Position numbers and translations under genes: made by a program
Shown here: piece by piece, positions 1,861 through 34,353 of the stretch
Layout of the letters: each line of letters opens with the position of its first letter
Position numbering within the stretch: the stretch's first letter is position 1
NCBI RefSeq assembly: GCF_963678975.1
Contig: NC_089281.1
Location: forward strand, 9,325,277-9,389,276
DNA: 64,000 nt
Direction of reading: 5' to 3'
Origin: Dysidea avara
Taxonomy: Eukaryota; Porifera; Demospongiae; Dictyoceratida; Dysideidae
The notes under the pieces: model-generated
Seen by the model: only the letters and a program-made list of their open reading frames with translations
Told to the model about the DNA's origin: nothing
The model's database searches: none

Positions 1861-3795
1861 TAATGCATCGAAAATGACAACAGTAACAGTGCTGATGATT
1901 GCTAGGCTCATATCTTTGAATTAACTGTATTAGATATTAATACATACAATGCCGGCCACGTATCATGATGCACGTACTGAGATACATAGCTGTGATGTTT
2001 TTATATGTAGCTATACCCCAAATCTCAATGTTAATAATTCACTTTGTTTTATGCAATAACTATGCCAAATTAAGTTTCTTAGCACTTTAGAGGCTATCAA
2101 TGGATTCTATATGGATATGAGAACATAGAAATAGTGTTTGTTGCGAATAAGAGGCTGACATAATTATGGAGAAATTTGCACCATAGCCAGGGGCAGATCT
2201 AGGATTTCAGAAGGGGGGGTGCTAACATGGACATTTATATATGTAGCAAGATAGTTGATACAATTAGTGTGAGAAGCACACTCAGCATGCGGAGCATGCT
2301 CTATCTAGGGGGGTCTGGGGGCATGCCCCCACAGGAAAATTTTGCAAATTTGGCCTATTGAGATTGAATTTGGTAGTAATTTTGAATGAAATTTTGTTTA
2401 TGTGATACCATTATTCCCCTACAGCTTGTCAATGTAACTAAAGGGCGCAGCCATGTAGCTAAAATTCAATCTTAGACTAACATTTTAAAGAACTAGTAGT
2501 GGAAACATATGGGTATCAGCTGCACATGATCAAATTTAGTGTTTTGAAGTATAGCATAATTTACAGTCTCATGGCTCAAACTATACACCAGTAGAGAGGG
2601 TAAGTGGGAGTGGAGAGGGCAAGTAGACTCACCAGTGTATGGAGTGCATGTGCACTCAGTTGTATATAATTCTCCAGCTAGGGGGCTTTAAATCTGGTGG
2701 CATATGTACTCCCGGACCCCTGGAAATTTTTGGAAAATGGCTATCACAAGATTGAATCTAGAAGCTATTTTTAATCAAATCTGGGTACAAAATAAATGAG
2801 TTCAGGTGGAAGTAATTTTAATTTGAATGAGTTCAGTTGGAAGTAATTTTAATTAAAAAAACAGAACTATACACTGTTTCTTGTTATTGGTTTTAAGAAA
2901 ATGTATAATAGTGGCTTGTCAAAGAGAATAAAGTTAATTGAATGTAAAGTCAAGGATTGGATCTACAGGAGGAAGACGTAATTTTCAACTAAACTCTCTA
3001 TATACTTGGTGACTTCTTTATTAATTATATGCATTACTTATAAGTAATACAACTAGTTTAGTCTAGTTACATCCTTTGTAACTAGTTTAGTCTAGTTACA
3101 TCCTTTGTAACTAGTTACAAGTTACAACTGTCCAAAAAGTAACTATATAAGTTACACCAGTAACTAAGTACAATAGTGATAAAAATAATATTTTGCACAT
3201 AAACCCTAGGATATAACCTATTTAAAACACAGGATTGGATCTACTTCATATGTAGCCACTGTTCTGAAGTGCTGGTTGCTATTTCAATCTAACTTTTAAA
3301 ATGATGGATCCATCCATCATTATAATTGTTTTACTACTAGTCTACAAATACAACTAGTTTTTGGCCACAACTAACCCCTTTTTAGCACACAATTGATCAT
3401 GACAACATAAATGCTGCAGTATCATTTAAACTTAAAAGTTGAGCTTCAAGGGATTTGATAGTGCAAACTCCAAAGCTGCTACATTTATACAAATGTAGCA
3501 TGGGATTTGATTAAGCAAGGGAAAACAAAAACGAACAATTCACAGATGTCACAGCCTTGTAAACTTTATAAAAGCTATGAAATTCACTATTATATAAGAC
3601 TACTGTTTTACTCGCAAGAGAAGCATTTCAACCCAAGAATCAAGTTTGTAGCAGAGCCTTAAAATATATTTGACAGAAAAGGTTATTTTCAGAATGGATT
3701 TTCAATTAATGATGTTTTATACAATTTATAGTACATTAAAGGTATAAATCTTTTACCTGAAGTGATTGATATATGGCAGGATGTTTGGTACAGTG
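1861..3795. other. Gene-free stretch with repeat fragments
   Basis: No credible coding frame. It holds a fragment beginning AGGGGCAGATCTAGGATTTC with a G-rich tail (about 2190-2345), similar in style to the AGGGGCGTAG element at 5656, and a tandem duplication of about 30 bases at 3049-3110 (unit AACTAGTTTAGTCTAGTTAC...). Confidence 0.5.
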
Positions 3796-4060
3796 GTGAG
3801 GGTATAGTCTCGCGTGGCCAGACCGCTTTTTCTCTTTGTCATTGGGTAGGGAGAAAAAAGGGTCTGGAACAGTTTGAATCCCACAATCGTCTTGACACGT
3901 CACGAGTCAATGTCATAAGTATGCAACCCTAGTCTCGTGCCCAGCCGGGCTCGCGCTAATGCGCAAACACCGTCTGGTGTGGTGACAATGCTCGAGTTTC
4001 TTGGGCCCGGAAGTGTGATCCAGCCAAAATATTGGCTGGCCAATCAGAATCGAGGAGTTG

Positions 4061-4362
4061 CGTAATCATTTTAAAACACTAAAATACCATTCCAAAATGG
4101 CTAGGAATAAAGTAAAACTCAAATTAGGGTGTTTACTTAATGTGATTTCTTCATTTATCGTATTAGTAGAGGATAGCGTATCATTTCTGGTGAAACATCG
4201 AGTCACGATTCACAAGGTGAAACCGGAAAAAACAACTTGACAACTTACGTCTTGAATAGTGTAGGAGAGTAACTTCTAATAAACGGCTTTAAATAGTCTG
4301 CTTATTTACCATACTACTACTTATTACCTAACTATATACTTATTACTACCTACGTACTTAAC
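4061..4362. other. Level-2 spacer, no gene
   Basis: Between the left inverted repeat and the stop codon of the captured frame. It carries TTACTAC- and TTAACT-type AT-rich sequence and a short plus-strand open frame (4058-4240) without recognisable content. Confidence 0.4.
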
Positions 4363-5316
4363 TTAACCAATGTCAAAGTCAGGAAATTTGTCCTCAGCAG
4401 TAAGCGAATATTGGCAGAGTATCATTTTCGCATTGTACCTCCACAAAGTCACAGACAGTTGCTGGAGAAGTTGGCGCATAGCAAACTTTTGAGGTAAACC
4501 ATTTCTAACAGTTGTTCTGTCAGCTATGGATCCTAAAATTGATAGGGCATATGGTGACCAAACACCAAAGGTCTCACATACAAGAGGGATAAAATCTCCT
4601 CCATTATCATTCACAATGTCCTGGTATTGGTTGTCCTTAGCTATCTCACCAACAGCAGCGGCCACCCCAGCCTGAGAAGAAGCAGAAGATATGACAGCAG
4701 ACTGAGTGGTACTCCTGACGGAGAGATCAAAATAGGTAGGACGACCAAGATGAAAGTCAGGGTGGTATATGTCGCCAGGACGAGATTGGTCAGATGAAAT
4801 GCCTTGCTCCCTAAGAACACCAGGGTGATCTTGGAGCAAGGCATGGTGTACAACAGACACTAAAGCATTATGACGCTGGATCCTCAAGGGACCATGAGAG
4901 CACCCCAGCAGATGATCACCAAACTGGTCAATGACAGATAGACAAGTACAGAGTGGTAAAGAAGGGAACAAAGGAATACCAAGCCACAAACGTAAAGCTA
5001 TAGTAAAATCGTGAGGAGGAATAGCTAGACCCAAAGCAGGCTGTGGAAGTGCTTTAAGCCAACCACTGCTGGTGCCAGAAGAATGTGATAAAGCACGCAG
5101 ACGTGCTTGATCACGAATAGTGGAACTGCTTACAAGCTGTTTAAAAAGTGAATCATCTAAAATGGCTTGAAAGTCAGTTTGAGAGGAGTTATGCAACACA
5201 GAAACAGACATACCTTCGAAGAAAGCGAGGGAACAATCCTCCCCGGGGAAATGGCATAAAAACATCAAAAGTTTCCACTAAACGCGACACTAAAATACGG
5301 GCAGAATTACAGGACC
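4363..5316 (-). pseudogene. Retroelement C-terminal region: zinc-binding and restriction-like endonuclease (REL) domain fragment
   Basis: The minus-strand frame 4363-5268 ends at a natural stop. About residues 107-133 carry a spaced Cys/His set (CTCL, then GDHLLGC, then RQH-type His). Next come RPGDIYHPDF (about 163-172) and TYFDLSV (about 178-184), matching the R-P-x-D and D-x-V pattern of restriction-like endonucleases of non-LTR retroelements. The frame upstream of residue 1 continues in another phase (5189-5316), so there is a frameshift near 5235-5250. The N-terminal continuation lies at 8336-8607, beyond a transposon. The family is recognised by motif only; it could come from any REL-bearing non-LTR clade. 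Confidence 0.65.
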
Positions 5317-5655
5317 TGTCACGGAAATATCGGTCCGGGTAAAATCGGTCCGGCCGGACCGATTTTGGATACCAAAACTGGTCCGGCCGGACCAAATTTG
5401 GTTGACCAAGTTTAGTCCGGCCCAAACTTTGTTGGCCACATGCACCCCCTGACCACCTGGACCAATTTTGGTTGGCCCGAGGGTGTACCCGGCATTGTGT
5501 GGACAGGTCGGTCCGTGCTAAGTATATTGTGATGGATCACTGCAGCCGACTTAGCCTGGAAACTATAGAAATGAGTAGCGTAGTTTAATTTCCCGAGTTG
5601 ATTTACGGAAAATGCATATAGTAGCTAGAAACTAAATTCCATGTCATATAGCTAT

Positions 5656-6476
5656 ATATGCAGGGGCGTAGGGAGGGGGGGTTCCGGGGGGGTTCAGGAA
5701 CCCCCTGTAAAATTTAGACTTCTGCAAGCAGGATCTTACCACACCATTTAGTGTGGCAGGACAAAATGAGTGAGTAATATAGTGTAATGGCGCAGCACAA
5801 CAATTGATAAAACTTACATTCATCTCTCAGGGAAGGATTTACAGAGGTAACATGAGCCCTCTTCAAAACTTGTTAAAAAGATCGATATACTCTAATAGAG
5901 CAGTCAGGTTTATACTCTAATAGAGCAGTCAGGTATACTCTAATAGAACATGCATGTAAATATATCCATGTCCATATGAAGTTTTTCAGACATTCTAACA
6001 TTAAATACAAACTTAGCATGACCTTATACTGCTATAGCTTTGGTGTGCAGTGTTTAAAGATATAGAGCTCCAGTAATTTATCACTTGTGTTATGCAAAAT
6101 GAATTCATACTATACATATTTGTATAGTTATATTGTTTCGATTGTAAGTCATTCCATTTGTATCAGTGGATTCATGGCTCCTATACCACAGTGAGATATA
6201 ACTATCACTTACAGATTACTATAATTATGTGTCTCTGTGTTAAGCTGTCTGTTTCCACTAGGTAGCTTTATCTAGTACTACCTTCATCCCAGGGGCACTT
6301 ATATGCATCATAATTAATGTACTTTTGCATAAAATATAGCAATTTGCTGAGTTTTGATTCATTAAAATATTGACAGTCTCTCAGCGGCTGGGGGCTGTGC
6401 CCCCAGACCCCTGCTTCTGATAACTCAATGCTGGTGCTGGAACCCCCCTTCAAAAAATCCTGGCTATGCCCCTGAT
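5656..6476. mobile_element. Level 4: AGGGGCGTAGGGAGG element, copy 1
   Basis: About 820 bases, starting CAGGGGCGTAGGGAGG and ending CTGGCTATGCCCCTG, so the ends are short inverted repeats. A second copy at 22608-23287 shares the internal blocks in the same order (ACACCATTTAGTGTGGCAGG; the 19-bp TACTCTAATAGAGCAGTCA motif; TTTGGTGTGCAGTGTTTAAAG; TCAGCGG.TGGGGGCTGTGCC). Flanks share ATATG, a possible short duplication. No transposase. Termini resemble hAT-type MITEs; this is inference. Confidence 0.7.
5888..5950. repeat. Three tandem copies of TACTCTAATAGAGCAGTCA
   Basis: Perfect 19-bp copies at 5888-5906 and 5913-5931, then a decayed third from about 5936. Preceded by GATCGATA. Located inside the level-4 element. 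Confidence 0.85.
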
Positions 6477-8100
6477 ATGCAGCGATGAACAGTCGCAAAA
6501 ATAATGTTGTTTTAATTTAAAGCAGTATGGTATGATAAAAGTCCTGCATTCTTCTTCTCCATGTCAATAGCTAGCTGGGAAGCAGAGGTTTTCTTCCGGC
6601 ATATATCAACTCAAATGCATGGTCAATGCTGGATTCATGGTGGTCAATGTTGCATGCAAAAACACAGGTATCAAAATATTCTTCCCAAGTACGCTTTTAT
6701 ATGTTCAACCACTGTTTGAATGTGAAAACCTTTTCTTGTATTATTGATATTAACTACCAATTAAATTTTTTTTTTTAAATGTTCAATAAACTTCACAAGC
6801 ATCATCAGCTCTGCAGTGTTTGGTTGAATCTTTCATCCAGCTTGTTTGTGTTGATTATGACAAACAACTATATATAGCAACATGATGGAAATCACCAGCC
6901 TATGCTGGATCACTTATACTTGAGGATGGTAGACAATATATAAAATCTATCATTAAAACATGTCTTATCTTCAACTTCTGCATATATAGCTCAGAATTTA
7001 ATTTGTTAATTCTGACCCTTGGTCAGTTTTTTATTAATCTGGGAATACCCATGCACGCATTGTCATAAACAGATACACATATTATTTCAGGGACTGATCC
7101 AGAGGGGTGGATGAGGTGGCTAGCCACCCACCATGCATGGCCTTGCAGCCACTCAGACATGCATTATTTAATAATGAATATTACTGATCATGAACACTCT
7201 TTTGTTATATCAATATGAACTAAATCCCTACATTGCATCAGATTCCAATGCTAGCTGGCTATAACCTTACAGTAGATGGTAGCAGTATACATGAATTTAT
7301 CTATGATCATGGGCAGTATTAACTATCACCAGGCAGAGGACTTCTTGAAGGAAAATATGGGGTCTGCTTTAGGATTGAGTCGATTTTACTTTTATGTCTG
7401 CAGCAACTCACCCTAAGGCTGTGGAATAATGTGACTGCATGCCTCAAAATTTTAAGTTGGCTAAGTAGTAAAAAACATACTGAGAATATTATAGCTATAA
7501 CCTTTATAAGGTGATGTTTCTTCCTGTGGGGCATGTCATTAGTAGGAGATGATAGTTCACATTTAGTTATTCAATGGAGTAAACCTAAACTATTATCTCC
7601 TACATATCACATATGACAGAGAGGAATGTGCAGTATGTACACATGCAGGTGTTACAGATGTATTGTTCTAACCATTAGTGTTAACTCATGATCAGACATT
7701 ATATGTGCATAAGAGCACAGTACACATGATACTGTGCATGCACTTCACTGTACAAGCCAAACAATAACAGTTTCAGCTTTTCCTGATGTATATAAATATT
7801 AAGACATTTAGGACTCTCAACTTAAAATCTGGGCCAGGCTGGGTAGCCACCTACCTTCATTTATTTCTGGATCAGTGCCTGGTGATGAATGTTATAGGTG
7901 ACTGCTCTATTAGAGTATCTCGATCTTAAGCACCTCCAATGCGGCTAGCTGATCCTGTGCATGCAATGATCCGTGCCCTTGTTGGATAACCTTTTAAGCA
8001 CAAATCCATGCAGTGATAATGCCTGCAATGCTCATTATTCGAGATTGATAAATGAGAATAGCTATAGCTAAGTTGGTTGCAGTGTTCCGTCACAAACAAT
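6477..8100. other. Interior of level-3 element, no gene
   Basis: AT-rich, no coding frame supported. It contains one copy of the 19-bp motif at 7899-7917, followed by CGATC. Short open frames here are not conserved-looking. Confidence 0.45.
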
Positions 8101-8335
8101 TTATAGCTATGCATCATTGGCTGCATGCGTTAGTGGTCCACCCGGACCCATTTTGGTATACCAATATTGGCCGAGTGGTCAGGAGTGCATGTGGCCAACT
8201 AGGTTTGGGCCGGACCAATTTTGGTCAGGTCGGACCAATTTCGGATGCTTAAAATGGTCCGGGCGGACTAAATTTGGTCGACTGAAAATGGTCCGGCCGG
8301 ACCGATTTTTGCCCCGGACCAAAATTTTCGTTACA

Positions 8336-8607
8336 GACCCCACAAATGCAGGAGCAGCAGAACGCTCAGATTCACGTAGGCCCAAGCCTCGTAACCTAAA
8401 TGGCAAGGTGGCTTGTGTCCAACTACTATCAGAAATTCCACAACACAAGATACTACTAAGGCATTCTCGCAACCTAAGGTCAAAATGTGAGGGAAAGGAG
8501 CCCAAAGAGGAAGATGGCACACAACGTAAAAGGTGAGTGACCTTGCAAACGTTAAGACAGCTCCTAAGCAGATGCAACTCTACTTGAGGGTCCTCGAGGT
8601 CAACCAA
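8336..8607 (-). pseudogene. Reverse transcriptase C-terminal (thumb) fragment, continuation of the REL gene
   Basis: Minus-strand frame with ATLPFRLRGLGLRESE and then APAFVG, a pattern typical just after the polymerase domain of non-LTR reverse transcriptases. The frame runs into the level-3 element at 8335 and would resume at 5316. Upstream of about 8607 there is no RT core before the inverted repeat of the level-2 element, so only the thumb plus endonuclease part was carried. Its position next to the inverted repeat suggests capture of a gene fragment, not an autonomous element. Confidence 0.65.
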
Positions 8608-9135
8608 TTTATCCTAAATTGCAACTATTTTATCAAATTGAACAGATAAAAAGGCATCGTTTGCTTATTCGTCTACTTCCAATACATTCATGCGATTGTG
8701 CAACTCCTCGATTCTGATTGGCCAGCCAATATTTTGGCTGGATCGCACTTCCGGGCCCAAGAAACTTGAGCATTGTCACCAGACGGTGTTTGCGCATTAG
8801 CGTGAGCCCGACTGGGCACGAGACTAATGCAACACATGCGCTTAAACTCCAAGAATGCTACAGCACAACAATAAACAAAGATTTAACTTACTTAAAGAAC
8901 TATCAATCGATTCAATCTATTATCGCCTCAAAGGCAGCTTTAGATGCTGATCGGTTTATAAATACGCGCTTGCAATTGATTGACGCAAGCGGCTACTATT
9001 TGAAAACACATGTACATCACGTTTCTGGGGAGTGCCAAGACGAGTGTGGGATTCGAACTGTTCCAGACACTTTTTTCTCCCTACCCAATGACAAAGAGAA
9101 AAAAGCGGTCTGGCCACGCGAGACTAGTGAGGGTA

Positions 9136-9639
9136 GCAGTGCACAGGTCTAGCAGAATAGGTTTAATTTCAGCTTACACTCTAGTAACTTCTTGAAAGTT
9201 ATAGTTTTAATGTTGGATGTTCTATTAGAGTAGTTGACTGTTCTATTAGAGTATTTCGGATTTAGCAACTTCTAAGGTAAGACTTACTACAAAAGTATAA
9301 TTTTGAACCCTTCTTAGTAATTCTTGGATAAGATTAGCTATTCCCTTGCTCTTTCCATCTTTTCATTGCCCATACATGTGTATAAAATGCAACTGCACCT
9401 GTACTACAGCTTCTAGAAGCTTCCTAGTTTGCTCATTGTAAAATTTTGGAGGGGGGTGCTTCAGCGCCCCAAACACCCCCCCCCCCCCCCAAATCCGCTC
9501 TTGGTGAATGGTACTGTCTCGTGGATCGTGATGTTGGTAGGTAGGAAGTGATATCTGTTGGTAAAAAAACGAGGTAAAAAACTTTGTGTAATGTTTGTAG
9601 TCGAGATAATTTGCGGCGAGTCTGGAGAGTTAGCCATGA
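9136..9639. other. Spacer with motif copies and a poly-G/C repeat fragment
   Basis: Holds motif copies at about 9216-9232 and 9235-9253 and a GGAGGGGGGTGCTTCAGCGCCCC...poly-C fragment at 9448-9500 like other GGGG-rich element ends in the window. No gene. Confidence 0.5.
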
Positions 9640-13029: not shown

Positions 13030-14349
13030 TTACTTTGGTACAGTAGCAATCCTGGAGTTAATCTTAATGCTGTTTGTATTAAAGCCTGGTTCCTCACCGT
13101 GGAAGTCAAATTCAAGTTCCACTCCAGGTCGGAAAATCAGGCAATGTGAAGAGCCACCAAAGTGAAATGTCCCTGTCTGTTGACCTTTCTTCACACTCTG
13201 TCCTTCTTTGACTGTTATCTCACAAGAAGATACTTCTAACATGCCAACAGCTATAAAACACATCAAGCCAATATACGGATTGTCAGCCTCAATAAAAATT
13301 ATAGCTCTCGCTGCTACTTCTGTGAGATAGCCTTGAACATAATCAGAAACTGGAAGGTTATTATAGTCTTCATTGCCATTACCCAGTGGATAAGAATAGT
13401 AAGTGCCATCTGCAACAAATGCTTTTACAATTTTACCATCTACAGGGCTATGCCATCGGTGATAATTGTAGAGCATCAGAAGACCTTGGTACACGGTTCC
13501 CCCAACAAATTTTTCTGCAAGTGTGTCATCAGCTAACATGAATTTTAAATTATAAGGTTGGCCTTTTATCCAAAATTTGCCATGCTTTGTAACTTGTTTT
13601 TCAATTCTAAATGGCATTGATTCACATGCATTAACAATGACTCTTCTATCATCTGGATAAGCAATAGGACGAGCATTAGGTTGCAATTTTCTGGTAAAGA
13701 AATCATCCCATGAGACAAATCCATAGTGTGGTTTACTGGGATCACAGATAAAATCATCTTCAAAGTTTCCTCCCATTTTTTCTATGGCTTTTGCACTGAA
13801 CCATCCATCAGTATTCAGAACACTACAAGAATTTGGTGATTTTAGAAAGTCTCCCCACTTATTTAAGATGCTTTTCATATGATAATTGACTTTAGGGTTT
13901 AAAAAGGCAACATACCCATCAATTGTTTTCATTGGCTTAGTAAGTATTGCAGTGATGGGATAAGTCAATGTGGTAGTATTATCCCTAAATTCTGGAGGTT
14001 TTGTTAACACGTGGTTAATAATTTGAAGCATATGATGATAATCTTTGACCAGTCCTCGAGAAGTTGGAGTCTTCTTGTGGTAGTTTGTTGGAACCTCAGC
14101 AAACATTTGACCGAAGAACATTGATAGCTCAGCACTACTCTCAATGGCATCTTTGAATCTTTGAACAACCTGGTCCAATGGGTCAGGCGGTGTCTTCCTT
14201 TCAACTTCTTCAATCTGTTTTTGTAACCACTGATCCACAATGACTTCATCAGAAGGTAAGCACTTCCCTACATAGTACGGTACTGCTGTTTCATATGTGC
14301 CTGTAACCTCTGCAGGTGCTTTACTGAGGGTGGCACAACAGCATCCCAT
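13030..14349 (-). CDS. Phosphatidylserine decarboxylase-family protein, intronless
   Basis: A 439-residue protein in one uninterrupted frame. The family makes pyruvoyl-dependent decarboxylases, classically converting phosphatidylserine to phosphatidylethanolamine. Visible marks: WDDFFTRKL (about 214-222); YNYHRWHSPVDGK (about 294-306), the conserved His-bearing segment; AVGMLEV (about 367-373); and FGGSSHCLIF (397-406), where the self-cleavage triplet is GSS and not the GST of canonical mitochondrial or bacterial enzymes. About 200 residues precede the catalytic domain, as in the large soluble fungal and bacterial members of the family. The N-terminus MGCCC fits N-myristoylation plus palmitoylation (inference), suggesting membrane attachment without a transmembrane helix. 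GSS-type members include fungal tryptophan decarboxylases, so the substrate cannot be assumed. The lack of introns contrasts with neighbouring genes and leaves retrocopy or horizontal transfer open. Confidence 0.92.
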   Translation of the reverse strand: MGCCCATLSKAPAEVTGTYETAVPYYVGKCLPSDEVIVDQWLQKQIEEVERKTPPDPLDQVVQRFKDAIESSAELSMFFGQMFAEVPTNYHKKTPTSRGLVKDYHHMLQIINHVLTKPPEFRDNTTTLTYPITAILTKPMKTIDGYVAFLNPKVNYHMKSILNKWGDFLKSPNSCSVLNTDGWFSAKAIEKMGGNFEDDFICDPSKPHYGFVSWDDFFTRKLQPNARPIAYPDDRRVIVNACESMPFRIEKQVTKHGKFWIKGQPYNLKFMLADDTLAEKFVGGTVYQGLLMLYNYHRWHSPVDGKIVKAFVADGTYYSYPLGNGNEDYNNLPVSDYVQGYLTEVAARAIIFIEADNPYIGLMCFIAVGMLEVSSCEITVKEGQSVKKGQQTGTFHFGGSSHCLIFRPGVELEFDFHGEEPGFNTNSIKINSRIATVPK

Positions 14350-21020: not shown

Positions 21021-22607
21021 GCATCAGTGTTTCTGACTCCCTGTATTCACAGGTTTTCACTAGTAGCTAGCCTTCTCATCTAATAATCCAGATCTAATAA
21101 TCCTGCCAGCTGGGGTAGTAGAACTAGTAAAATTGAGTGCTAAATTTCGTAGCTATTTTAGCTAATTCGTATTTGTATGTAGCTATGTTACCGAATCTAA
21201 TTGCTAGCAGTAGCTAATGTGTGTATGTAATTATTGTATTATTTGTATTGTATTAATGCTTTACAGTGACCAGCACTGAAGGTCTGCAGCAACATGTGCT
21301 GCAGCCTTAGGATTACCTAACCTAATTTCAAGGACTTAGACTTAGTGACTTATAGCTGAAAAGGTGTAACAGAAAAGGGGCCAAAGTAAGGAAAAAAATC
21401 CCTCCAACCCCAGGAATCGAACTGCAGGTCACCCAATGTCTAGTCGGGGCCACACTCAGTCTCCTCCAGGAGGGATGGATTTTCTTCCTTAATCCTAAAG
21501 TTATATAGAACAAAATACAACAATAACTCAACAAAAATAGATTTACAAAAATCAGGTGGTCAAAGATGAATATAGCTGATGTTTAAAATGGTTGATATAC
21601 ATAATAGATTCATGAACATTAGTCTAGTGAAAAAAATACTGTTTACAAAAAACGATTATCTATAACTGTTGATTGAAGATGATTTGCGATGAGTGAATGT
21701 GCCTTGTACATGCAGAAATGAAAGAGAAAACTTCAGAGTAATATGCCTATGTGGGTTGTAGTACTGGCCTGGTGGGGTGGTGAGTGCACTCCTTGAGTCA
21801 AAATGAGCTTGATGGAAGCTGCACAGTTGACCAATTCAAGAAACCTTCTAAGCCCCTAACTTGGACTGAACGCTCAGTATCTGTTCTCAACTGATGCTTA
21901 ACTTTATTGAATACACAAGATATGAGTTGGTGGAAGGGCAGATAACTACTTTAGATCATTCAACAAGATGAGTACTAGATGTCTTGGAAATTTCATTGTA
22001 GTTTCTGAACCATAGACACCCATATATATGCTGAAACATAACTGTAGGACTAGTTCCTGAAACCATAATTTAGAGGTAGGACTGTGTCTTGTTTTCTGCA
22101 CAGGGAAAAAAATTTAGCTTTTCTGGACCAAGAAAATGGCATGGAAATGTGCAGGACATGCCAATGTTGAATTTACCAATCACACCTGGAGTAAAATAGT
22201 ATACTGTAAATGTCATGTGATCATCACATTTCCTAATGCAGTGTTCCCTTGATTATACAAACCTAGTTGTATTATCCGAACACTTGAGCAGTAGGAATGA
22301 CTGCTCTATTAGAGTATTTTGTCTGTTTAAGATGTATGTTTGATTAGAGTATTGAACGGGGCTCTGTATATAAATCAATGGCTTTGATTATCTGAACATG
22401 TCTTAGTCCCAAGGAGGTTGGATAATTGAGGGAGCACTGTATATTGGAAATTTCATGCATCTTGGACATTTTCTCTGCCAAAAATTTGACATGCTGTTAG
22501 ATTTCCTTACAATACATGAAATTTCAGAACACATGGCATGCGGTTAGCATTCCTATACTGAATGTACTTAAGATTTCTTTAGCTAAAGACACAAGACATG
22601 GCATGCA
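21021..22607. other. Gene-free stretch
   Basis: Contains the tRNA-like SINE (21390-21500), a pogo-like pair of ends (AGTGTTCCCTTGATTATAC at about 22240 and GGATAATTGAGGGAGCACTG near 22419-22438), and a 19-bp motif copy at 22299-22317. No gene seen. Confidence 0.45.
21390..21500 (-). repeat. tRNA-derived SINE-like sequence
   Basis: On the minus strand an A-box-like GACTGAGTGTGG is followed by GTTCGATTCC, a near-perfect Pol III B box, and the outer flanks GGAAGAAAATCCATCCCTCC and GGAGGGATTTTTTTCC are partly complementary, like an acceptor stem. It is too divergent for a working tRNA; the anticodon arm cannot be assigned. Confidence 0.5.
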
Positions 22608-23287
22608 CGGGAGCGTAGGGAGGGGGGGTTCTGAGGGGTTCAGGAATCCCCCTGTAAAATTTAGACTTTTGCAAGCAGGACCCTAACACACCATTTAGTG
22701 TGGCAGGACAGTAATATGGTGTAATGGCACACACACACAAAAATTGATTGTTTAAAAGATCAATATACACTAACAGAGCAGTCAGGTATATACTTTAATA
22801 GAACGAGCATGTAAATATCCATCCATATAAAGTTTTTCAGACATCATAACATTAAATGCAAGACTGAACATGACCTTATACTGCTGTAGCTTTGGTGTGC
22901 AGTGTTTAAAGATATAGAATTCCAGCAATTTAGCTATCACTTGTGTTATGCAAATGAATTCATGCTATGCATGTTTGTATAGTTGTAATGTTAAGTTTTG
23001 ATTGTAAGTCATGACATTTGTATATCAGTGGATTTATGGTTCCTATTACTAGCGAGATAACTATCACTTACAGATTACTATATGTGTCTGTGTGTTATGC
23101 TGTCTGCTTCCACTAAGTAGCTTAATCTAGTACTAGCTTCATCCCAGAGGCACTTATATGTATTATAATTTATGTACTTTTTGCATAAACTGAAAGTCCC
23201 TCAGCGGTTGGGGGCTGTGCCCCCCAGCTTCTCGTAACTCAATACTGCCATTGGAACCCCTTCAAAAAAATTCTGGCTACGCCCCTG
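22608..23287. mobile_element. AGGGGCGTAGGGAGG element, copy 2
   Basis: Starts GGGAGCGTAGGGAGG, ends CTGGCTACGCCCCTG. It shares internal blocks with 5656-6476 but is about 140 bases shorter. Flanks carry CATGCA on both sides (possible duplication). It includes the 19-bp motif (22766-22784, decayed). Confidence 0.7.
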
Positions 23288-32600: not shown

Positions 32601-34353
32601 TACTAAAGGATAATGAAGGCACAAAATAATTGTTTGGGCGATCGTGGATGCGTATTTTTACCCACCGCGTATCAGCCTTTGAACAGACCACGGAACAGCA
32701 AAGCTACTACTGCTACGTTGAAATAGGTTAGTAACTTACAGTCCTAAGTACTTAACTTAATATAATAACTTACTTACTGTCCCAATAGCTAAGTTAGTTG
32801 GCTTAACTTAGTACAAAAATGTAACAATATAAACTCCATCCTACAATCACAAGTTTTCTAATATTGCATGTTGAAGCATGGTAACGTATTAATGATGTTT
32901 TAACGTATGGATAACGTTCTGATGGCTATTAGCCCACGCTATTAAAACCACGATCAATCTTCAGATGCTACTGTATAAAACAAACGGGATGAGTTCTCAG
33001 TGGTTCTTTCACCTATTAGGTGAGTGCACCCCAAGTGATATTAGTCTCGCGTGGCCAGACTGTTTTTTCTCTTTGTCATTGGGTAGGGAGAAAAAAGGGT
33101 CTGGTCCGGTTCGAATCCCACACTCATCTTGACACTACCTGGATAATTGGGTAGTGTTAACCAAAGAAACGTGATGCATTTTTTTTTCTCCCTACCCAAT
33201 GACAAAGAGATAAAAGCAGTCTGGCCACGCGAGACTAATATCACTTGGGGTGCACTCACCTAATAGGTGAAAGAACCACTGAGAACTCATCCCGTTTGTT
33301 TTATACAGTAGCATCTGAAGATCGATTGTGGTTTTAATAGCGTGGGCTAATAGCCATCAGAACGTTATCCATACAAAATGTATCATGTTTCTTTGGTTAA
33401 CACTACCCAATTATCCGGGTAGTGTCAAGACGAGTGTGGGATTCAAACCGGACCAGACCCTTTTTTCTCCCTACCCAATGACAAAGAGAAAAAAGCGGTC
33501 TGGCCACGCGAGACTAAAGTGATATATATCACTTATACCACGGCTGCTTGGTATTTGCTGATACTATACACCCGCAGCCCTCGGGCTTTGGGTGTATATA
33601 TATCAGCAAATCCCTCGCAGCCATGGTATAACTATTAAATACGTCCAGTGTTCTGTAAAATATCGTGGCTATATAAAATGATGAAGCTAGGACGACGTCC
33701 TATAAATTTCTACTTTCTTGGAAGACCTCTACATAAATGAATGGTTGAGCAGTTCTAGCTATCAATATATTATATAGATAACTCACCACACTGTCCTCAC
33801 GACGTGTAGCTTTCCCCTCGGATTTTCCATTTGTTGCAGAGTGGTCTAAAGTGGTTCTGTTACTATTCATCATAGCAAATTCAAATCCAGTTAAACTCTC
33901 CGAGGTGATGGAGCGACAATCAGGGGAGAGCATATTTAGAATTGGAGTGTTAGATTCGGAAGGCGGCAAGCCATGGCCATTAAGAACTTTAGCACTAGCT
34001 CTTCTTCGCTTGTCAATTTCTTCTTCCTGTGGTCCATCAAGAGTGTTGTCAAGACTTTCTTCAGACTGAAAGGCCTCTTCGAATCTCTCCGACCATCGTG
34101 CTACAGCAGTAGGATTAGCAAGCGATTCTTGGGACGACGCTCTTGACGAAGCCGATAATTCAACCGAGCTGGGAATTCGAAGAACAGCACGATGTAGAGC
34201 TAGAAAAGCATCGCGTGTAGGTTCCCTTCTCTCTAAAGAGGCTTCTCCGCTCCCTCGATAGCTACCACTATCGGTATCACTAAATTTCTGAACAATGCCC
34301 ACCCGTGTCCGACGCGGGGGTACCCGCGAAGTAGTGCCAGTTTCTTCTTCCAT
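23624..34353 (-). CDS. Four-exon gene for an unrecognised membrane protein
   Basis: Exons (minus strand) 34353-33787, 27086-26919, 24297-24019 and 23773-23624 join at phase-0 boundaries with good splice signals into 387 residues. Exon 1 (MEEETGTTSRVPPRR...) is hydrophilic and Ser/Glu-rich with an RRR stretch, probably cytoplasmic. Exon 2 has a cysteine cluster (CCEKCTCC) followed by a hydrophobic segment of about 25 residues (ICIVLALLSVILIPFLISWL). Exon 3 is soluble with paired cysteines; exon 4 holds a second strong membrane segment (SVIFCLFTYMLLIVVVGLVV) and ends CIDKPW. Two membrane passes are inferred. The first intron is 6.7 kb and filled with transposons. Exon 1 starts 190 bases after the AREL1 stop. 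I recognise no family. Exon 1 is the surest part; extra exons could have been missed. Confidence 0.5.
24459..24607. other. Array of four short hairpins
   Basis: Inverted repeats at 24459-24483 (AGTGCCATA stem), 24501-24523 (GTGCATTA, one mismatch), 24550-24574 (AGTACATTATA, perfect, 3-base loop) and 24581-24607 (AGTGCAATAT, perfect, 7-base loop). Linkers share GCAG/CCGCA words. It lies just upstream of exon 3 of the membrane-protein gene, inside its intron. Confidence 0.7.
24818..25355. mobile_element. TAGTCTTG/TAGTCTCA element (24827-25346) with 9-bp TSD
   Basis: Inverted ends share TAGTCT, then GTGCC, then AACTGTCTGGTCACTGTTGC in the same order on both sides, with gaps. CATATATAT flanks it at 24818-24826 and 25347-25355, although the right flank continues as a TA repeat, which weakens that evidence slightly. 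520 bases, no coding content. A divergent subfamily of the TAGTCTC group. Confidence 0.75.
25619..25903 (-). other. Open frame in intron, possible extra exon
   Basis: A minus-strand open frame of 94 codons with a possible acceptor (CATCGATTGTAG at about 25787) and donor (AAA/gttagt). Its phase does not fit the phase-0 joins of the surrounding model, so I keep it out of the gene. Confidence 0.15.
27305..27748. mobile_element. hAT-like MITE (27313-27740), 8-bp TSD AGTACAAT
   Basis: Ends TAGTGGTGTGCGATATC and GATATATCGCACACCACTA with the 8-bp direct repeat AGTACAAT exactly on both sides. The body is full of ATCGATA words. Same family as 16519-16876. It lies in the first intron of the membrane-protein gene. 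Confidence 0.9.
27752..29110 (-). repeat. Interspersed repeat A, copy 2 and associated repeat DNA
   Basis: Begins TATAGTAGGGACCACAAAAG and runs, inverted, through the blocks seen at 39080-39895 (AACTAAGCC, GACTGACTGACTGGTGCCTTC, ATGGGCTTGATTTTTTCAC). A second partial block (GGCATGTCTTGGGCTTAAG, AACACTCAAGTCCGTAGC) follows at 28990-29060. The open frame at 28178-28441 lies in this repeat DNA and I do not call it a gene. Confidence 0.6.
28515..28605 (+). repeat. tRNA-derived SINE-like sequence
   Basis: AGTGGTTCAGTGGTTAAGGATG matches a Pol III A box (TGGTTCAGTGG), and about 45 bases on GGCTTGAACTC resembles a B box. A T run follows. No cloverleaf is convincing, so I call a SINE head or tRNA relic and not a tRNA gene. 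Confidence 0.5.
29111..31790. other. Intronic DNA without further genes
   Basis: No exon-like segment is supported. TTTGGCTCAGTGGGTCAATC at 30527 resembles an A box, but no B box follows. Sequence at 29130-29500 has repeated GAC/CGTTTATATGAGAC words, probably a repeat. Confidence 0.4.
31812..31868. repeat. Perfect 19-bp inverted repeat
   Basis: CACCAGGTGCTTATTGATT at 31812-31830 is exactly inverted at 31850-31868, with a 19-base spacer. It could form a stable hairpin in intronic RNA. Confidence 0.85.
32905..33525. mobile_element. Rearranged TAGTCTCG element (33042-33516) with 9-bp TSD and an inverted copy of its flank inside
   Basis: AAGTGATAT flanks the unit at 33033-33041 and 33517-33525. 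Inside are three TAGTCTCG termini: 33042 onward, the inverted end finishing at 33237, and the inverted end finishing at 33516. Bases 33238-33375 are an inverted copy of 32905-33041, the DNA left of the element. The TIR contains GGTTCGAATCCC, a perfect Pol III B box. Confidence 0.87.
33534..33631. repeat. Palindrome with GC-rich centre
   Basis: TATACCACGGCTGC, GTATTTGCTGATA and TATACACCC on the left are mirrored by GGGTGTATA, TATCAGCAAAT and GCAGCCATGGTATA on the right, around GCAGCCCTCGGGCTTT. Confidence 0.75.

Follow-up and report, generated by a model that had tools for sequence, protein, structure and literature searches.

A five-layer transposon nest in Dysidea avara whose innermost layer most likely joined its container before reaching the locus

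TinT is said to use nested transposons for relative dating. REANNOTATE takes nesting level as the temporal order of insertions, and both nesting and its use in relative dating are established (PMC2672092). The locus described here resembles the nest clusters of both approaches in that elements interrupt elements and an order can be read from containment, though the REANNOTATE rule would mislead for the innermost layer, which most likely joined its container before that container arrived. Its two outer elements share terminal inverted repeats (TIRs), 9-bp duplications, short non-autonomous copies and nested inserts with MULE/Mutator-type elements such as Tm1 (PMC3169594), and differ in that their TIRs begin TAGTCTC, the MULE assignment being putative. 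Nested transposons are ordinary for a repeat-rich genome; what is notable in this one is that an inner layer had most likely settled in its container before the container arrived, which makes it a clean, testable example of containment depth that need not equal insertion order at a locus.

Two further known systems bear on the inner layers. The reverse transcriptase block is a piece of a non-LTR retrotransposon, for which the nearest known kind would be elements with an endonuclease-like domain at the C-terminus, as in RLE clades such as R2/NeSL. It resembles such RLE-type elements in the RVT_1 domain of a sibling (L061), in 5' truncation and in the short target duplication of the piece, and differs in a C-terminal domain without a Pfam match and a shortened 3' end. 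The innermost element has the CAGGGGC termini of a hAT-like MITE, and we take these ends to be hAT-like; hAT target duplications are usually 8 bp, in contrast to the 5-bp duplication favoured here.

We tested the layers of a nest in a 64,000-nucleotide stretch of D. avara DNA (the window; C10:9325277-9389276) against other copies in the same genome, a 550.8-Mb assembly of 108 contigs in which C10 has 30,661,186 bases. The layers are named, from the outside inward, L1, L2, RT, L3 and L4. Very probably they form a five-layer nest made by four insertions on site, namely L1, L2, the RT piece and finally L3 with L4 aboard. A sequence-only reading of this DNA had described four nested transposons; the nesting holds, and the count rises to five since the RT block is a layer of its own. 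Genome searches took the best 40 candidates each, so that all copy counts are lower bounds and the junction searches could miss further composite copies. The features, in window coordinates, are as follows.

3796-3804, no strand: left target-site duplication of L1, GTGAGGGTA
3805-3929, plus strand: left part of L1, with the TAGTCTCGCG TIR; its last nine bases, 3921-3929, double as the left L2 duplication
3921-3929, no strand: left target-site duplication of L2, ATGCAACCC
3930-4306, plus strand: left part of L2, with the TAGTCTCGTG TIR; 17 copies aligned across the middle, 9-bp duplications in the flanks
4299-4306, no strand: 8-bp duplication left of the RT piece, TGCTTATT; single copy in the close L2 relative L010
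4308-5316, minus strand: 3' part of RT, with C-terminal ORF 4363-5268 and 3' UTR; 3' end short by ~26 bp or more
5313-5316, no strand: left target-site duplication of L3, GACC; empty site ACAGGACCCCACAAATG in 4/4 siblings
5317-8335, plus strand: L3, a non-autonomous TIR element, TGTCACGG...CGTTACA, with GGTCCGGCCGGACC-type subterminal repeats
5656-5660, no strand: left target-site duplication of L4, ATATG; empty site AGCTAT(A/G)TATGCAGCGATG in L084, L087, L088 and L089
5661-6474 (about), plus strand: L4, CAGGGGCGTAG...CTATGCCCCTG; the copy in L054 matches from 5661
6475-6479, no strand: right target-site duplication of L4, ATATG
8336-8339, no strand: right target-site duplication of L3, GACC
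8340-8660, minus strand: upstream part of the same truncated RT copy, from sibling alignments (L059-L062) and a junction search
8662-8669, no strand: 8-bp duplication right of the RT piece, TGCTTATT
8662-8826, plus strand: right part of L2, from copy alignments and a junction search
8827-8835, no strand: right target-site duplication of L2, ATGCAACAC
8827-9126, plus strand: right part of L1; its first nine bases, 8827-8835, double as the right L2 duplication, with one C-to-A change
9127-9135, no strand: right target-site duplication of L1, GTGAGGGTA

The coordinates and duplications of all noted layers are present in the window sequence. Target duplications flank every layer, those of the four local steps measuring 9, 9, 8 and 4 bp, and at fixed places 9 bp would match exactly by chance with a probability of ~4e-6, or ~1e-4 where one mismatch in nine is allowed. 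L1 has long inverted arms (3827-3898/9032-9103 at 94%; 3805-3831/9100-9126 at 100%), as does L2 (3977-4067/8694-8784 at 95%; 3930-3979/8777-8826 at 96%), and empty or uninterrupted sites for L2, RT, L3 and L4 were seen in sibling copies of the same genome. The nesting of L1, L2 and L3 with their duplications, as first read from the letters, is thus borne out, and the separate genome copies of the layers that this reading called for were found (short L1, L3 without L4). Every layer is a repeat, a class prone to misjoining, and the interval might in principle be an assembly artefact of unrelated repeats. We regard this as extremely improbable, since each junction comes with the target duplication and the empty site that insertion predicts, and no N was seen within the interval or anywhere in 3500-9500.

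L1 (3805-9126 in the window) belongs to a short non-autonomous TIR family of ~440 bp. Its copies were sought with window 8827-9126 as query (best 40 of 638 candidates), and 19 of 30 fetched loci were examined as whole copies. These are 425-452 bp long (n=19), share 91.1-95.9% identity with the window L1 and in 16 of 19 cases carry a 9-bp duplication with at most one mismatch. In short copies such as L030, the counterparts of window 3805-3929 and 8827-9126 adjoin and overlap by 9 bp, which is the short element without L2 (3805-3929 plus 8836-9126) that had been predicted. The L2 target is empty in these siblings, reading ...ATGCAACCC and then ATGCGC, with exactly ATGCAACCC in 14/19, and the window is the sole match spanning the L1/L2 junction among the best 40 of 494 candidates.

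L2 (3930-8826 in the window) likewise represents a short non-autonomous TIR family, of ~530 bp. Among the best 40 of 422 candidates, 17 copies aligned over the middle connect the two parts of the window element directly, without the RT block; one of these (L013) has a 20-bp gap at that very place and another (L009) is broken near its right end. A by-eye count gave 16/19 rows with a 9-bp flanking duplication of at most one mismatch, two of the 16 being counted after the listed boundary was moved. The nearest L2 copies among those scored, L009 (contig C1) and L010 (contig C2), share an identical left flank of 15 bases, and because of this flank they are probably duplicates of one another.

The retrotransposon homology spans 4308 to ~8660, and of the best 40 of 815 candidates the 39 besides the window match at 96-98%. 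All four siblings compared (4/4) extend upstream of 8660, and in L061 this upstream sequence, outside the piece held by the window, contains a reverse transcriptase domain (RVT_1, 3.6e-9), so the window copy is 5' truncated. Pfam gave no match to its C-terminal ORF, an NCBIfam search returned weak matches only, far below the cut-off, and PDB sequences showed no match to the sibling RT ORF up to E 0.1. Nothing interrupts the L2 copies at the point where the window has 4307-8661: siblings read AGTCTGCTTATTCATC or variants straight through, the RT piece being absent, and in the window TGCTTATT is exact on both flanks. The window alone spans the left L2/RT junction among the best 40 of 380 candidates, and it alone spans the right RT/L2 junction among the best 40 of 296. 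From the L2 copies that lack it, the TGCTTATT duplication and the unshared junctions, the RT block is an insertion in its own right, peculiar to this locus among the matches scored.

This result does not bear out the sequence-only reading, which had treated the block as a captured fragment carried by L2 and had predicted a ~1.9-kb element consisting of L2 and RT without L3. The scored matches of both junctions contain no such element, and with a second copy of either junction absent among the best 40 each, joint amplification of L2 and RT is not seen. The RT block as mobile cargo of L2 was therefore rejected, on the L2 siblings without it and on junctions unshared among the scored matches. The comparison shows how to distinguish a fragment that merely resembles captured cargo from one that inserted separately.

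That L2 acquired the piece as captured cargo, by Pack-MULE-like transduplication or as filler in the repair of a break within it and not by retrotransposition, we judge unlikely. The piece is cut at both ends, including a 3' end through ACATACTG or a one-letter variant that is kept by 23/24 sampled siblings (L059-L082); target-primed reverse transcription does not usually leave ~26 bp or more missing there. An L1-family element elsewhere in the same window (33042-33516) contains its own flanking sequence in inverted form (97.9%, 193 bp), so the TIR group does take up filler. Set against this are the exact 8-bp duplication around the piece, single in the L2 relative L010, the two RT junctions that are not repeated among the best 40 each and so give no sign that L2 moved with RT, and the variability of retrotransposon 3' ends, one sibling (L071) having also kept only part of the 3' sequence. 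A wider version of this alternative, in which RT is filler from staggered-break repair in L2, reflecting a capture habit of the TIR group, and L3 is an undescribed non-autonomous family that prefers G-A/T-C-C and spreads with L4 hitchhiking, seems to us slightly more doubtful again. We thus prefer a separate insertion of the RT piece into L2.

L3 interrupts this retrotransposon copy, and its site is empty in all of the siblings compared (4/4), which read ACAGGACCCCACAAATG. Copies of L3 were sought with its left end as query (best 40 of 336 candidates). Two of them, L087 and L088, have both ends and 4-bp duplications (GACC/GACC and GTCC/GTCC), with other inserts in both; a third, L089, is a copy with no recognisable left end. 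A transposase frame was looked for in L084, which has no ORF of 100 aa, and in its extension, again without success. The frame of the retrotransposon had been said to be restored when L3 is removed. This is correct locally, as removal of L3 with one copy of its duplication leaves 133 open codons across the join, but away from the join the window copy has another stop, and a shift of frame, relative to the siblings. The segment 7088-7881, with CAGGGACTGATCCAGA inverted ends, was considered as a sixth layer and rejected, being also present in L083 and L085; L087 matches 6475-8339 unbroken, and by eye no matching target duplication was seen around the segment, so that no feature singles it out as a local insertion of its own.

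The duplication around L4 is either ATATG (5 bp) or, with the boundary read further, ATATGCAG (8 bp); the shorter is favoured because the copy in L054 begins at CAGGGGC. Among the first three L3 loci fetched, L4 is present in L083 (C9) and L085 (C5) and absent in L084 (C8). The first two are not full copies of L3, L083 ending at about window 8276 and L085 lacking 5317-5411 and having been fetched to about 8282. They differ from the window at 2/821 and 0/795 positions in L4, at 1/790 and 5/794 in 7088-7881, and at 8/1345 and 10/1251 in the remaining L3. The L3/L4 junction is spanned by four of the best 40 matches (800 candidates), namely the window itself and copies on C9 (100%), C5 (99%) and C10 (87%). 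Eight of the 40 match the L3 side only, with ends at window 5663 (seven matches) and 5657 (one). The remaining 28 begin at query positions 38-66 and so cover little or nothing besides the L4 side. The L4 site is empty in four L3 copies (L084, L087, L088 and L089), the last three having been chosen as matches to the L3 side only; these are the copies without L4 that had been predicted.

Given that the L3 copies on C9 and C5 share the L4 junction and that others are empty, L4 must have entered an ancestral L3, and L3 and L4 most likely came to this locus jointly, with L4 probably not a later event here. The outer-to-inner order implied by the first reading is consequently not supported at its innermost step, as L4 is already present in L3 copies at other loci, and we rejected L4 as the final local event on this shared junction. 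For L4 to have inserted here last, the copies of L3 with L4 elsewhere would have to derive from this locus. L3 copies without L4 do exist, so that L4 must have entered some L3 once, and the copies on C9 and C5 could in principle descend from the window copy. Even so, we consider this course of events highly unlikely: differences from the window number 11/2861 in L083 and 15/2839 in L085, and the junction at C10:1858826 matches at only 87%, which together with those differences points to an older joint origin. The left flank of L083 is also unlike that of the window and speaks against segmental duplication of the locus as the source of the L3 copies with L4. Sharing of junctions across the genome in this way separates the local events (L2, RT and L3) from the pre-packed L4.

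In the order that we propose, the non-autonomous TIR element L1 (~440 bp) would have inserted first, with a 9-bp duplication, and the related element L2 (~530 bp) would then have entered L1, again with a 9-bp duplication. The RT piece, shortened at both ends, would have followed, landing in L2 in minus-strand orientation and duplicating 8 bp, and L3, with L4 already inside, would finally have entered the retrotransposon with a 4-bp duplication. Judging from their 9-bp duplications, L1 and L2 may have been moved by a MULE-type transposase; MULE-domain matches in the genome number at least 150 (best 150 of 410 candidates). The RT piece may have entered by target-primed reverse transcription or as break-repair filler, and the putative mover of L4 would be hAT-like.

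Letters private to the window copy (L1 11/416, L2 1/528, RT 11/1327, L3 8/2835, in samples that, with the window counted, comprise 19, 18, 5 and 3 sequences) are upper bounds and not dates, as they vary with the closeness of the sampled sisters. The counts for L1, RT and L3 fit the proposed order, while that for L2, being lower than that for RT, runs opposite to it if taken literally. The L2 sample includes two close sisters. The duplications themselves, with 0/9 mismatches for L1 and 1/9 for L2, had been thought at odds with the order of the two insertions. Under the models tried in which the outer element is older, this combination has a joint probability of 0.04-0.24, and it is therefore compatible with that order. 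Gene conversion, which had been offered beside mutation for the mismatch, is unneeded, as one C-to-A change suffices; this change sits in the right copy, ATGCAACAC, because 19/19 L1 copies have C where the window's right L2 duplication has A.

Apart from the nested insertions, the window holds the following features, among them an L1-family element (L1 being the outermost layer of the nest, from a short non-autonomous family).

5878-5954, 7893-7942, 9207-9258 and others, both orientations: short repeat around TACTCTAATAGAGCAGTCA
13030-14349, minus strand: open reading frame with a match to phosphatidylserine decarboxylase (6e-36 to Pfam PS_Dcarbxylase)
22603-23287: second, diverged element of the type of L4, the innermost nest layer (main pieces 78-82% to L4)
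33042-33516: L1-family TIR element, with flank at 32905-33041 and the duplication AAGTGATAT on both sides

Within the 33042-33516 element, positions 33182-33374 are an inverted copy of the element's own left end together with 137 bp of adjoining DNA, matching these over 193 bp at 97.9% identity. The interior looks like filler taken from the element's own flank. Elsewhere in the genome, five L1 copies on contig C7 (L031, L032, L033, L036 and L038, 36.6-37.3 Mb) have the same duplication, gtactatgc, and therefore probably stem from a single insertion that was multiplied as part of a large duplication on that contig.

Both flanks of the diverged L4-type element carry CATG. At C8:5007000-5012400 (L084 and L086), a copy of L3, the TIR layer that encloses L4, lacks L4; it is broken up by other sequence of ~3.5 and 0.9 kb, and its right end was not found.

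Three siblings of the window's non-LTR retrotransposon (L068, L069 and L074) share an alternative, longer 3' end (TTTAAACGAGCATACAAATG...GAAGCCATAATATTACATACTG), and the 3' ends of this retrotransposon therefore vary among copies. The short repeat around TACTCTAATAGAGCAGTCA also recurs, in both orientations, many times across the window and the flanks of the fetched loci.
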